DNA of 23,922 bases from a virus, in IMG/VR virus record IMGVR_UViG_3300045999_004907, positions 1 through 23,922 of that record. One strand, 5' to 3'. The position numbers were made by a program, and so were the translations under genes. Below, piece after piece: positions 5,756 through 14,900 of the stretch. Within the stretch, counting starts at the first letter, position 1; each line of letters opens with the position of its first letter. The notes under the pieces are model-generated. The model saw nothing but the letters and a program-made list of their open reading frames with translations. It did no database searches and was not told the origin of the DNA.

Positions 5756-5976
5756 GCTGCACACCTCACAAGGTTGATGCACGTATCACGCAACGCGTTG
5801 GTGAGAGGCGCACTGGTGGTGAACTCAGCCAGCACGTACACGACGCTTGTGGGGCGCTTGGCCTCCACTGCGTACATGTAAGGTGCCCCGAAGTGCACAC
5901 GCCTGACCCGGAAGTCAAACATGTCCACCGTGACGGGTTTACACAGTTTCCACTTGACCAGCTCAGGCTCGCTCAT
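5752..5976 (-). CDS. Unrecognised 74-residue protein
   Basis: ATG 5976 overlaps the stop of the metallopeptidase/vWA gene by ATGA and has GAGG upstream. The protein reads as beta strands (VTVDMFDFRVRRVHFG, YMYAVEAKRPTSVVYVLAEF) with a short C-terminal helix carrying two Cys. It ends in another ATGA overlap. Strict start/stop coupling on both sides suggests a fixed ratio with its neighbours. No family recognised. Confidence 0.6.
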   Translation of the reverse strand: MSEPELVKWKLCKPVTVDMFDFRVRRVHFGAPYMYAVEAKRPTSVVYVLAEFTTSAPLTNALRDTCINLVRCAA

Positions 5977-7163
5977 GGACGAATCCTCAACACCTTGCCT
6001 GCGCGTGGCATGAAGTCTTCGTTGTCCACGACACCCCACAAGGTCGGCATGTCGGTCATGCGGTAGTCGGACTCGATGTAGCCATCGGTCAGCATGATGA
6101 CAGCCTTGGCCTTGATCTTGTGCTCGGCCACGTAGTCAGCAACACATGACACAACAGTGCCGCCACCGCCCTTGGGTGCAAGCTGCGTGGCAATGTCTTG
6201 GTACTGCTCGGGCTTGAACACTTGATCGCCGCACACCTCCGTGTCCCACCACAGCATGCGCACGCTGTCGGGCCGTGTGTTCTGCACGATACGCGCCACC
6301 TCACCGAACACAACAGGGTATGCCCAGTGCATGGAGCCTGACGTGTCACACGCAATGACGATCTCGCCAATGTTCTCGTCGAAGTGCGAAGGCATGATGA
6401 AGCCGGACGCAAGCAAGCGCTTGTTAGGTGGGCAAAAGCGTGAGTTCTCGTCGCCAACGCACACAGAACTGATGAAGTCCTGCAACGCATCGCGCCAGTT
6501 GGTCACGCGCTCCTGCGCTGTGCCAAGGATGTCACGGCCACCCTCTTTATCGCCACGCATCTTGCGCACAAGCAACTCGCCTTGGCGGTTGGCATCGTCG
6601 ACCATCTTGCCCAGCTTCTCGGACTCCTCGGGCGTCATGGGGTCACCACCACCCTCGCCGTTCATCTGGTGGTCGTCCATGGCCTGCGGCTGTTGCTCTT
6701 CGTCAGCATCCTTGAGCAACTCTTGCAGCACCTGCGGGTACGACATGCCCTTGAACTTCTCGTCGAACAAGACGCTGATCTTGGCGGGGAAGTCCATGAA
6801 CTTGCGGTCAGGGTCAAGCTCGTCGATCAGGCCGTTGACCACGTAGTCCATGGCCGCGTTGTTGATCTGCGGACCGAAGCGCTTGCTGTACCCAATGTAC
6901 GCTGGCAAGACGCAGTGCTTGAGCGCCACGTGGAAGTTCTCGTGCAGCACAACGAAGCGCAGCTCCTTGCGTGTCAGGTCACTGATGAACGCGGTGCCGT
7001 ACATCTTGTCCTTGCCGTTGGTTGCAGCAGTGGGCATGTCATCACATGCCTCGGACTTGCCCATGCACACGATGCCGGACAGCAGCGCGAATTTGTGGTG
7101 ACGCATCACGTCGATGTTGCACGCTTGGATTTTCTGGTTGGGGGTAAGTTTGTCAAAGCTCAT
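5973..7163 (-). CDS. Zincin-like metallopeptidase / von Willebrand A protein
   Basis: This 396-residue protein resembles the DUF2201 type, a metallopeptidase-like N-terminal domain joined to a vWA domain. His74-Glu-Asn-Phe-His78 (in VVLHENFHVALKH) is a zincin HExxH motif. An acidic, Gln/Gly-rich linker (about 152-185) follows. The vWA part has the MIDAS residues Asp273-Thr-Ser-Gly-Ser277 (ACDTSGSM), Thr336 after GGGG, and Asp360 in MLTDG. All key residues are present, so metal binding by both domains is likely. Such proteins pair with MoxR ATPases, which remodel a target through the vWA partner. Start chosen after AGGAGAAGCAACC. Peptidase activity is inferred from HExxH only. Confidence 0.85.
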   Translation of the reverse strand: MSFDKLTPNQKIQACNIDVMRHHKFALLSGIVCMGKSEACDDMPTAATNGKDKMYGTAFISDLTRKELRFVVLHENFHVALKHCVLPAYIGYSKRFGPQINNAAMDYVVNGLIDELDPDRKFMDFPAKISVLFDEKFKGMSYPQVLQELLKDADEEQQPQAMDDHQMNGEGGGDPMTPEESEKLGKMVDDANRQGELLVRKMRGDKEGGRDILGTAQERVTNWRDALQDFISSVCVGDENSRFCPPNKRLLASGFIMPSHFDENIGEIVIACDTSGSMHWAYPVVFGEVARIVQNTRPDSVRMLWWDTEVCGDQVFKPEQYQDIATQLAPKGGGGTVVSCVADYVAEHKIKAKAVIMLTDGYIESDYRMTDMPTLWGVVDNEDFMPRAGKVLRIRP

Positions 7164-7851: not shown

Positions 7852-8976
7852 TTACTTCGTGCTGAAGAAAATCTTGTGCGATGCCAAGAGCGAACCGAAG
7901 TTCGTCAACGACACATAGTGCGCAATGTTGGACGAGTTGGCCACGCTGTTGCAGAAGATCGACTGCATCTCTGTGCGCATGCGCAGCACGTACTCAACAA
8001 CCTTGGCCGCATCGTCGCGGTTGTCAACGCGTGAGACGAACTGGAACACCTGCACAAGCTGAGCAGTGGGGTTGTCGGCCAGCGGCGCAGTCGCAGGGTC
8101 TTTGAGCACACGTTCGAGCGAGCAGATGTCACGGCCAAAGCGTACGAATGAAGACAGCGCCTCGGCAGTCGTGGCACCCAGCGTACCGATCAACGCAGCC
8201 TCCAGCGTGTCATCGTCGAGCACACCGTCACCAGCATCGAGCACGTCACCCGCTGCAACCAAGCTGCGCGGCGTAGCGTAGGCCAGTGCCATCGAGCGAG
8301 GGTTGAAGATGTAGCCGTTGTCCTTGTCTTGCTGCTTGCCCTCGTGCTTGCCGCCCTTCTCGTAGTCGAGAAACGAGTCCATGACCTGCGCGTAGCTGTT
8401 GACGAACGCGATCACCGAAGCGTTGACGCCCTTGTCGATGGCCCACTGCACCCACTCGCCAGCGGTAGGCTTGCGCATCTTGACGAACACGAGACGGTTG
8501 CGCAGGTGCGCTTGAATGCTATCGCCAAGACCCTCAACAGCCAAGTTGGTTGCACAGAACACCACGCTACCCTCGGGCATGTGGTAGTTGCCCACGCGGC
8601 GCTCGTAGATGATCGGGGCCAGCACGTTCTTGATGAACTGCGGAGCCTTGGCGATCTCGTCGAGGAACACCATGATTGGCTTGGCATCGTTGACACCCAT
8701 CTGATTGGTGCGCGATACACCGAAGCGCTCGTTTGGCAACTCACGTGACACGCCGTTCTCGCGGTCGAGGTCAGGCATCCACACAGAACCATCGGACAAC
8801 TGTGTGCAATCGACGGGGTCAACTGCGATGTGGCCAGCGAACTTGGGGTGCTTCTTGAGCGCGTGGAACAGCGCGGTCTTGCCTATGCCGTTCTCGCCCT
8901 CGACGATGACGGTACGCTTGTCGCCAACAGCGGCGATGAGGTTGAGGACTTGAGTGAAAGAAAGCATTTTGTTCAT
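7852..8976 (-). CDS. MoxR-type AAA+ ATPase
   Basis: This 374-residue AAA+ ATPase carries Walker A Gly27-Glu-Asn-Gly-Ile-Gly-Lys-Thr34, Walker B at 101-107 (IMVFLDE), a sensor-1 Asn144 (CATN) and Arg159/Arg161 (LRNRL) as candidate arginine finger. The C-terminal 200 residues are helical. MoxR-type ATPases form rings that remodel or load partners, usually through a vWA protein; that partner is three genes downstream in the same operon. The ATG has AGGAG ten bases upstream, and a promoter with a palindrome precedes the gene. Similar ATPase-vWA pairs are, from memory, known in N4-like phages. The cellular target is unknown. Confidence 0.85.
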   Translation of the reverse strand: MNKMLSFTQVLNLIAAVGDKRTVIVEGENGIGKTALFHALKKHPKFAGHIAVDPVDCTQLSDGSVWMPDLDRENGVSRELPNERFGVSRTNQMGVNDAKPIMVFLDEIAKAPQFIKNVLAPIIYERRVGNYHMPEGSVVFCATNLAVEGLGDSIQAHLRNRLVFVKMRKPTAGEWVQWAIDKGVNASVIAFVNSYAQVMDSFLDYEKGGKHEGKQQDKDNGYIFNPRSMALAYATPRSLVAAGDVLDAGDGVLDDDTLEAALIGTLGATTAEALSSFVRFGRDICSLERVLKDPATAPLADNPTAQLVQVFQFVSRVDNRDDAAKVVEYVLRMRTEMQSIFCNSVANSSNIAHYVSLTNFGSLLASHKIFFSTK

Positions 8977-9006: not shown

Positions 9007-9026
9007 GTGAGACACAGAGGTCTCAC
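9007..9026. repeat. GTGAGAC palindrome copy 1 (loop 6)
   Basis: Perfect arms GTGAGAC and GTCTCAC flank ACAGAG. It lies in the 5' leader of the MoxR operon, downstream of the predicted promoter. On the leftward strand the hairpin is followed after four bases by five T, so this copy could weakly terminate or pause transcription. Confidence 0.85.
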
Positions 9027-13380: not shown

Positions 13381-14250
13381 TCACATGTCCTCCCACGGTA
13401 TGGCTGACCAGTCCGTGGTGGTTGGTGCAGGCACGAAAACCTCCGGTGGTTTGACCGGCTGTTTGATCTCGGGCCATGGTGGGGGCATGGGCAAGCCCGC
13501 CTCGCGCCGCGCTTTGATTCGCTCAAGCCGTGCCTTGGGGCTACCGTCCTTGGCCAGTGAGGACACTTTGGGCGGCACACGTTCGTCTGGTGAGGGCACG
13601 TGCGTGGCCAAGCTGGGCAGTCGAGCTCGTTTGCGGTACTCGGGCGGCAGGGTCTCCCACAAACGCTTGATGCGCAGGCGCTCTTCCCACTCAATGTAGT
13701 TCTCCCACTGCATGTGCTGGGGTGGCAGACCTTTGCCCTGCCACATGAACTTGATACGCTCCCGTGTCTGGGTGAGCACCAGCTTGTATTCCAAAAAGAA
13801 TGTAAGGTCGAGGTCAGGCCAAGCGTTCTTGACGTGCTTCTCTTGCTGCTGCGTGGATGCCAGCTCCTTGCGTATTCCCGCCATGACTTCGGTCCACGGC
13901 GCAGTCTTGGCCGTACGCCACACGGCGCTGGTGGCCATCTGCCTGTTGATCGTTGCCTTGATCTTGCGTTTCTCCAGCTCAGCGTTGGCGATGCGGGCGT
14001 ACAAATCCCCGCTGTTGACGCGGTTGTGGATTTCTTTGGTCGTGAGTTCGCTCAAACCTTTGGCGCGGGGTTGGCATGCCTTGCACATGGATGACTCGAT
14101 TTCCACAGGGGCGTTGCCTGAATAACCCCGCGCTCTGGCCTGTGCTCGGGATAGGTCTCGCTTGAACTCAGCCAGTGGTTTGATGTTTTTGCAGGTCGCA
14201 CACATGGCGGCATGCGTGCCCGGTGCAGGTGAAAGATAACAGTTTTCCAT
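13381..14250 (-). CDS. Zinc-finger-like 289-residue protein
   Basis: Start chosen at ATG 14250, after GGAGCAAACC; a longer reading begins at 14292 with no ribosome site. Cys17-x2-Cys20 (CATCKNIKPLAEFKRD) and Cys56-x2-Cys59 (SMCKACQPR) frame a basic loop, a pair typical of zinc ribbons or degenerate HNH-type folds. A long basic helical region follows, with Trp-rich parts, and the C-terminus is Pro-rich (LPMPPPWPEIKQPVKPPEVF). No histidine or Asn of a full HNH motif follows the cysteines, so nuclease activity is unlikely to be certain. It sits directly downstream of the candidate origin and may bind it, which is inference from position. Confidence 0.7.
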   Translation of the reverse strand: MENCYLSPAPGTHAAMCATCKNIKPLAEFKRDLSRAQARARGYSGNAPVEIESSMCKACQPRAKGLSELTTKEIHNRVNSGDLYARIANAELEKRKIKATINRQMATSAVWRTAKTAPWTEVMAGIRKELASTQQQEKHVKNAWPDLDLTFFLEYKLVLTQTRERIKFMWQGKGLPPQHMQWENYIEWEERLRIKRLWETLPPEYRKRARLPSLATHVPSPDERVPPKVSSLAKDGSPKARLERIKARREAGLPMPPPWPEIKQPVKPPEVFVPAPTTTDWSAIPWEDM

Positions 14251-14276: not shown

Positions 14277-14305
14277 AGTGTACATTGTCCACCTCTTATA
14301 AGCAA
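14277..14305 (-). promoter_or_regulatory. Candidate promoter for the zinc-finger gene
   Basis: Reading leftward, TTGCTT (14300-14305) and TACACT (14277-14282) are 17 bases apart, 27 bases before the ATG at 14250. A TGTCCA hexamer lies in the spacer and another begins two bases from the -35, so a protein that binds these sites could regulate the gene. Match to consensus is only fair. Confidence 0.4.
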
Positions 14306-14609
14306 GTGGACACCCGAATGGGACAGCGGAAAGCCTTTGTTTATGCGGGTTGCGGGGGGTGCTGACCCACATGACTATCAAATCCCGAAAGAGCAAAGCT
14401 GGACAAAGCCACGGGATAAGTTCTGTCCACTTGCACGCACATATATACATATATCTCTAAATCTCTATTTATATATAGTAGTGTTCTGGACAGTGGGTGT
14501 GGGACGCTAGTATCCATGCGGGTTACAGGACGCCCACGTGTTGTCCACGGCGTTGTAAACAGTGGACATGCAAAATTTGCATAGTTTCTCCACAACGTGT
14601 TACCAAAGA

Positions 14610-14634
14610 CCCGTGAGACACGGTGTCTCACGGG
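14610..14634. repeat. GTGAGAC palindrome copy 5 (10-base stem)
   Basis: The longest stem of the family: CCCGTGAGAC and GTCTCACGGG around ACGGT. It follows the stop of the 63-residue gene by 11 bases on the leftward strand and has only a weak T tract after it (TCTTTGG), so it may act as a 3' hairpin. Confidence 0.85.
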
Positions 14635-14852: not shown

Positions 14853-14871
14853 GTGAGACGCTGTGTCTCAC
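14853..14871. repeat. GTGAGAC palindrome copy 6 (loop 5)
   Basis: Arms GTGAGAC and GTCTCAC flank GCTGT, 15 bases upstream of the 63-residue gene's start codon, in its leader and just beyond the terminator at 14875-14900. Confidence 0.85.
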
Positions 14872-14874
14872 GGA

Positions 14875-14900
14875 TAAAAGAAAGCCCGGACAAGCCGGGC
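14875..14900 (-). terminator. Rho-independent terminator after the first leftward gene
   Basis: On the leftward strand GCCCGG-N5-CCGGGC (14884-14900) is followed directly by TTTCTTTT (14876-14883). That is a standard intrinsic terminator shape and orientation. It lies about 95 bases after the stop of the 143-residue gene. Hairpins at 14908-14921 (GCCAGC-TC-GCTGGC) and 14975-14993 (CGATTG-N7-CAATCG) lie just upstream of it. Confidence 0.75.

Follow-up and report, generated by a model that had tools for sequence, protein, structure and literature searches.

A site cluster around an A+T-rich core as a candidate replication origin in a group of uncultivated phages

For most uncultivated phages, the replication origin and its initiator are unknown. 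A short region in one such genome raises the question whether it could be an origin. In the window, which is the whole stretch analysed and comprises the entire IMG/VR record IMGVR_UViG_3300045999_004907 of an uncultivated phage (23,922 bases), copies of the hexamer TGTCCA in both orientations surround an A+T-rich stretch directly upstream of a gene. The original prediction, made from the letters of the window, proposed that this arrangement is a possible replication origin. After following it up, we give an even chance to the region being a replication origin with an adjacent initiator/autoregulator, acting like an iteron or lambda-type origin and served by a new protein family.

Sites and A+T core upstream of the gene

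The elements of the region and its borders are listed here in window coordinates.

13381 to 14250, minus strand: gene whose 289-aa product combines a CxxC...CxxC zinc ribbon with a helical body; the candidate initiator/autoregulator
14277 to 14305, minus strand: possible promoter TTGCTT-N17-TACACT of the 289-aa gene, overlapped by the right 27-mer; weak and not kept outside the clade
14286 to 14312, no strand: right (gene-proximal) 27-bp element TGTCCAC-N13-GTGGACA, with two of the seven hexamers; aligned in relatives
14343 to 14351, minus strand: degenerate second 20-mer copy AACCCGCAT in direct orientation; better copies exist in other phages
14400 to 14405, minus strand: single TGTCCA site, TTTCCA in L007
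14424 to 14429, plus strand: TGTCCA site flanking the A+T core, read as GTGGACA on the minus strand and kept in most relatives
14439 to 14488, no strand: A+T core, the window's least stable 50 bp and a candidate melting element
14487 to 14492, minus strand: TGTCCA site on the opposite flank of the A+T core
14505 to 14524, minus strand: 20-mer AACCCGCATGGATACTAGCG, the region's most conserved element
14542 to 14568, no strand: left 27-bp element TGTCCAC-N13-GTGGACA, mirroring the right element
14613 to 14631, no strand: GTGAGAC-N5-GTCTCAC palindrome at the region's edge, one of eight clustered around the region

Exact TGTCCA or TGGACA lies at 14286, 14307, 14400, 14424, 14487, 14542 and 14563, which accounts for 7 of the window's 21 occurrences. 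All seven predicted copies within 283 bases were thus found, but the claimed excess of fifty times chance was slightly high: shuffles contain 15.7 hexamers per window, which corresponds to about 0.19 in 283 bases and an excess of about 38-fold. The densest 283-base cluster of TGTCCA in 400 dinucleotide shuffles held four copies, a number reached in 2 of the 400. When any hexamer is counted, the shuffled maximum is usually five, and because seven or more are reached in 1 of 60 shuffles, the hexamer count alone is strong, not unique.

Four of the seven hexamers serve as the arms of the two 27-bp inverted elements, which the original prediction had missed and which stand as mirror images 256 bp apart in the window. 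The wider pattern TRYCCAC-N13-GTGGRYA occurs zero, one or two times in each of eight related records and only at these places, and its reversed control has zero occurrences in the same records. The spacing of the pair is either 256-257 or 274-276 bp, two classes about two helical turns apart, and the segment between the copies is oriented alike in all ten relatives compared. Within one genome the two copies tend to agree (GGCTTTA in both L031 interiors, ACTTCGA in both of L032), with interiors varying between genomes; the window's own two interiors mismatch at most positions. Such within-genome agreement could come from base pairing, or from two copies of a site tracking one protein. The 27-mers were considered as the heart of the feature and rejected in that role, as a wider search left the 20-mer and the A+T core as the constant part. 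At the left 27-mer, a ribosome-site-like GTGGAG followed by an ATG (14523-14582, minus strand) opens a short ORF, possibly a leader peptide, of which the peptides diverge (19 aa in the window, 14-45 aa elsewhere).

The A+T content of 85% given for 14441-14480 is exact (34 of 40), the ATCTCTA direct repeat is present, and the stretch is the A+T maximum for 40-mers in the window, as its counterpart is in four longer related contigs (55-66 kb). Moreover, at both 50 bp and 100 bp the A+T core has the lowest stability of any stretch in the window, in these four contigs and in part of a fifth, with 50-bp stability z values of -5.8 to -6.7 for the window and the four contigs. Its flanks carry the three hexamers that lie outside the 27-mers.

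Between the left 27-mer and the A+T core stands the 20-mer AACCCGCATGGATACTAGCG, also missed before. By scanning IMG/VR we found it exactly in 48 contigs, one of them a chance match and the others representing about 30 distinct contexts, compared to 8 contigs for the sequence of the A+T core itself. The core begins about 37-60 nt past the first base of the 20-mer in all contigs except that chance match (L084:10387-10406, an unrelated contig), where the 20-mer lies at a tRNA gene beside an apparent integrase gene, probably by chance. A partner copy, often degenerate, follows 170-196 nt after the first in direct or inverted orientation. Because the 20-mer occupies one place per scanned genome or locus apart from this partner, it is not a dispersed promoter. 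Shorter YCCAC/GTGGR sites are fourfold enriched over 17 relatives (137 versus 32 in shuffles). Direct pairs of them show a spacing peak at 21-22 bp (15 pairs) that is at the edge of random placement, and the 17 pairs lying 20-22 bp apart, against a mean of 8 and a maximum of 18 under random placement, make the phasing merely suggestive.

Conservation of the region and of the adjacent gene

Relatives were gathered by homology to the window protein, as ten IMG/VR contigs and then four more. About 300 bp of upstream sequence can be aligned among them, even where protein identity drops to 30-43%. In four relatives, identity amounts to 21 of 21 positions for the 20-mer and 41-44 of 44 for the A+T core, compared to 62-80% at the fourfold sites of the next gene; conservation in relatives, which the original prediction had proposed as a check, was borne out. 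Its description of the region as noncoding is right in effect, as the 58-aa ORF that crosses it (14341-14517, minus strand) shows no selection at the protein level: the ratio of silent to replacement changes is 1:8 and 3:15 in close relatives, and the frame is disrupted in L011, L031 and L032. A conserved small protein was rejected on these grounds, and the mainly replacement changes together with the broken frame therefore indicate that the constraint acts on DNA.

The minus-strand neighbour encodes a CxxC...CxxC zinc ribbon, in agreement with the zinc-finger-like protein first noticed next to the sites. Nearly every contig of sufficient reach has a member of the same family as its next gene (27-67% identical to the window protein among the aligned sequences). 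L090, L077, L087 and L105 have a next gene without the zinc ribbon, of which the profile matches the family's helical body (hhalign probability 93.7, E 1.9e-7). Element and gene are co-inherited, because one family's gene follows wherever the contig reaches, ribbonless homologues included. AlphaFold predicts the helical body with a pLDDT of at least 90 across 129 residues. For the neighbouring protein, no known initiator family or fold could be assigned: Pfam profiles (Rep_3, RepA_N, lambda O and others) gave no hit above the cut-off, and searching structures with two AlphaFold models (pLDDT 65 and 79) produced nothing below E 0.001. The zinc ribbon weakly resembles that of endonuclease VII/HNH proteins, with a CxxC-x~35-CxxC arrangement, PL..F in between, and weak PHROG matches for most members. 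In contrast to those proteins, the nuclease part is unrecognised here and the remainder is a long helical domain without structural match.

To the right of the region, the window carries genes for the terminase large subunit and the portal protein, the terminase genes lying 1.3-2 kb from the region. Among the related genomes, G001, record IMGVR_UViG_3300046004_001292, closes on itself via a 478-base overlap to 64,916 bases and has the region near the point where leftward late genes give way to rightward early genes. It encodes its own replication set of DNA polymerase A, an SNF2-type helicase and a PD-(D/E)XK exonuclease, in addition to a 986-aa protein that matches DUF927 and primase-helicases. 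Searches of three 65-66-kb genomes turned up no tyrosine integrase, HTH_3 repressor or ParB, and 84,980 bacterial and archaeal genomes yielded no prophage relative; a lytic life is therefore likely for the phage group, although hosts outside the sampled genomes may differ. A search for a T7-like RNA polymerase found none, and the control for that search also gave no signal. At the level of the terminase, the group is kin to the pelagiphages HTVC023P/027P and the Planktothrix phage Pag-Yong1. Searches by blastn with the region gave no match in named phage records, the window protein had no match in the named phage collection, and a plasmid search with the region returned only a 36-base match at chance level. 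Among the early genes of the window, a VWA/metallopeptidase-like DUF2201 protein and an AAA-type ATPase are encoded as a pair (5973-7163 and 7852-8976, minus strand).

The palindrome at the region's edge belongs to a set of eight GTGAGAC-N5/6-GTCTCAC palindromes, at 9007, 10507, 12615, 13322, 14613, 14853, 15121 and 15316. Six of them precede a ribosome site and ATG by 15-90 nt, and the other two lie within a 143-aa ORF. Longer relatives have such palindromes clustered only within 5-6 kb around the region, with arms that vary by phage: TGGGAAC-N5-GTTCCCA in G006, GTGGGAC-N5-GTCCCAC in G007 and CGTGGAC-AAATT-GTCCACG in L011. Cluster K mycobacteriophages possess start-associated (SAS) and extended SAS repeats, inverted and located just upstream of several translation starts (PMC3203893). 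The GTGAGAC palindromes share this placement of inverted repeats upstream of the translation starts of several genes, but differ in sequence, in being clustered in 5-6 kb and in having arms that vary by phage. Just before the palindrome at 14853, an intrinsic-terminator-like hairpin GCCCGGCTTGTCCGGGC followed by TTTCTTTT is present (14884-14900, minus strand).

Origin, operator, RNA leader or recombination site

The site clusters, the least stable DNA of the window, the conservation, the co-inherited gene and the phage-encoded replication proteins all argue for an origin. GC skew, proposed as a check, did not lend support: the cumulative skew is near zero and inconsistent, no consistent switch appears at the region, and A/T skew only tracks transcription. 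The main rival is a multi-site operator alone, in which the zinc-ribbon protein, as an early regulator, would bind both 27-mers about 256 bp apart and repress its own promoter through a DNA loop, with the A+T core as a flexible or promoter element. The right 27-mer indeed overlaps the sequence TTGCTT-N17-TACACT just before the gene (TTGCAT-N17-TACAAT in L028), the copies match within a phage and differ between phages as the operators of one protein would, and the two spacing classes are about two helical turns apart. Conversely, the promoter is absent in L011, L031 and L032, matches in the region were at chance level in a promoter scan, and an operator needs neither the genome's least stable DNA nor a strictly conserved 20-mer; we consider this explanation on its own rather unlikely. 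An operator of lysogeny (CI/Cro-type) was rejected, given the lack of an HTH_3 repressor, an integrase and a prophage relative in the genomes searched. Initiators often repress their own genes, and origin and operator are therefore not mutually exclusive; the region might equally serve as a regulatory hub of early genes.

If the region instead acted as a structured RNA or 5' leader, the 27-mers would pair over about 230 nt in a long nested hairpin controlling the downstream gene. The outer stem in the ten closest sequences, with 9 of 23 positions changed on both sides compared to a shuffled mean of 4.4, folding z values of -8 to -11 in some relatives, and the ribosome site and ATG ahead of the left element are in line with this. 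However, both strands fold equally, the window itself is weak (z -2.4), and G-U type mismatches number 15 on the early strand versus 13 for the opposite strand. The equal folding and the even G-U counts thus favour DNA sites over RNA. As no consensus fold emerged over 24 relatives, in an alignment that is poor outside the core, and no Rfam family model matched the region, an RNA leader appears improbable. We regard a recombination, inversion or packaging site, with the 27-mers as recombinase sites or the region as a cos/pac block near the terminase genes, as very improbable. Two unique inverted sites, their matching interiors in some phages, the short distance to the terminase genes and the second 20-mer copy, of which the orientation is direct or inverted depending on the phage, would suit it. 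Against recombination, the three 65-66-kb genomes lack a tyrosine integrase, one orientation prevails in all ten relatives and the window's own interiors differ at most positions; against packaging, the self-closing 65-kb contig has its ends elsewhere. A tyrosine-recombinase site was accordingly rejected, with no recombinase encoded and both orientations not seen, as was a partition site parS, with no ParB gene in the three genomes.

Comparison with known origins and a possible replicator cassette

As in iteron and lambda-type origins, the region combines a multi-copy cluster of short sites in noncoding DNA with an adjacent A+T-rich element that, by computed stability, melts easily. No DnaA box TTWTNCACA was found in the window, which does not fit a DnaA-dependent origin, and no IHF-like site in the region. 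T7, a phage with DNA polymerase A, has its primary origin in an A+T-rich part of the early region. These traits are shared by our region, but the paired 20-mers and the YCCAC sites have no T7 counterpart. In the lambda ori, iterons bound by O dimers lie beside an A+T-rich region (PMC5043065). The likeness extends to repeated, internally inverted sites by an A+T-rich stretch, an early region and, provided that the neighbouring protein is an initiator, a phage-encoded initiator close by. The site sequence is unrelated, however, the sites here flank the A+T core on either side and are accompanied by a strictly conserved 20-mer, the region is upstream of the gene and not inside it, and none of the searches related the protein to O. 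In the PLE satellite, the origin is noncoding, carries semi-palindromic repeats and is served by a RepA of the satellite's own (PMC7145576). Like this origin (RepA_N) and those of iteron plasmids (Rep_3), our region would form a cassette of origin and rep gene in noncoding DNA with semi-palindromic repeats (PMC7145576), but here a DnaA box is missing, neither Rep_3 nor RepA_N matched, the sites are mixed in orientation and their phasing is only suggestive.

Two stretches in other phages are similar in plan, homology not being claimed. Pag-Yong1 carries nine GTCATAC direct repeats in about 350 noncoding bases before its terminase genes (L044:7013-7365), out of 11 in the 19.4-kb locus, an iteron-like and possibly counterpart region. 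Phage DSL-LC04 has an inverted repeat of 36 bp, whose copies are 83% complementary and stand 131 nt apart, in an A+T-rich, divergent noncoding stretch (L042:2478-2680).

We tentatively propose, at somewhat less than even confidence, that the region is a previously undescribed replicator cassette consisting of a 20-bp site pair, an A+T melting element, YCCAC clusters and a new initiator family. This family would be built of a zinc ribbon and a helical body, with the ribbon lost in some lineages, and the cassette would be common to a broad uncultivated phage group that is terminase-related to HTVC023P/027P and Pag-Yong1. On the origin reading, to which we give an even chance, the strictly conserved 20-bp recognition site and its second copy about 170-195 bp off would be an origin component, with the A+T-rich melting element placed between the two copies and flanked by clusters of the short YCCAC/GTGGR site, TGTCCA(C) in this phage. 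The protein of the downstream gene may bind these sites, bend or wrap the DNA and open the A+T core. The open core would then allow loading of the phage's own primase-helicase and DNA polymerase A, with replication starting at the region. Via the 27-bp inverted element at the gene's promoter, the protein might moreover limit its own synthesis.

The 20-mer and the gene family would mark a likely replication start in many genomes, providing a sequence handle by which origins may be located in metagenomic contigs. If the region is an origin, it offers a candidate initiator family and parts for autonomous replication; even as an operator, it would remain a regulatory cassette kept throughout a large group of phages.
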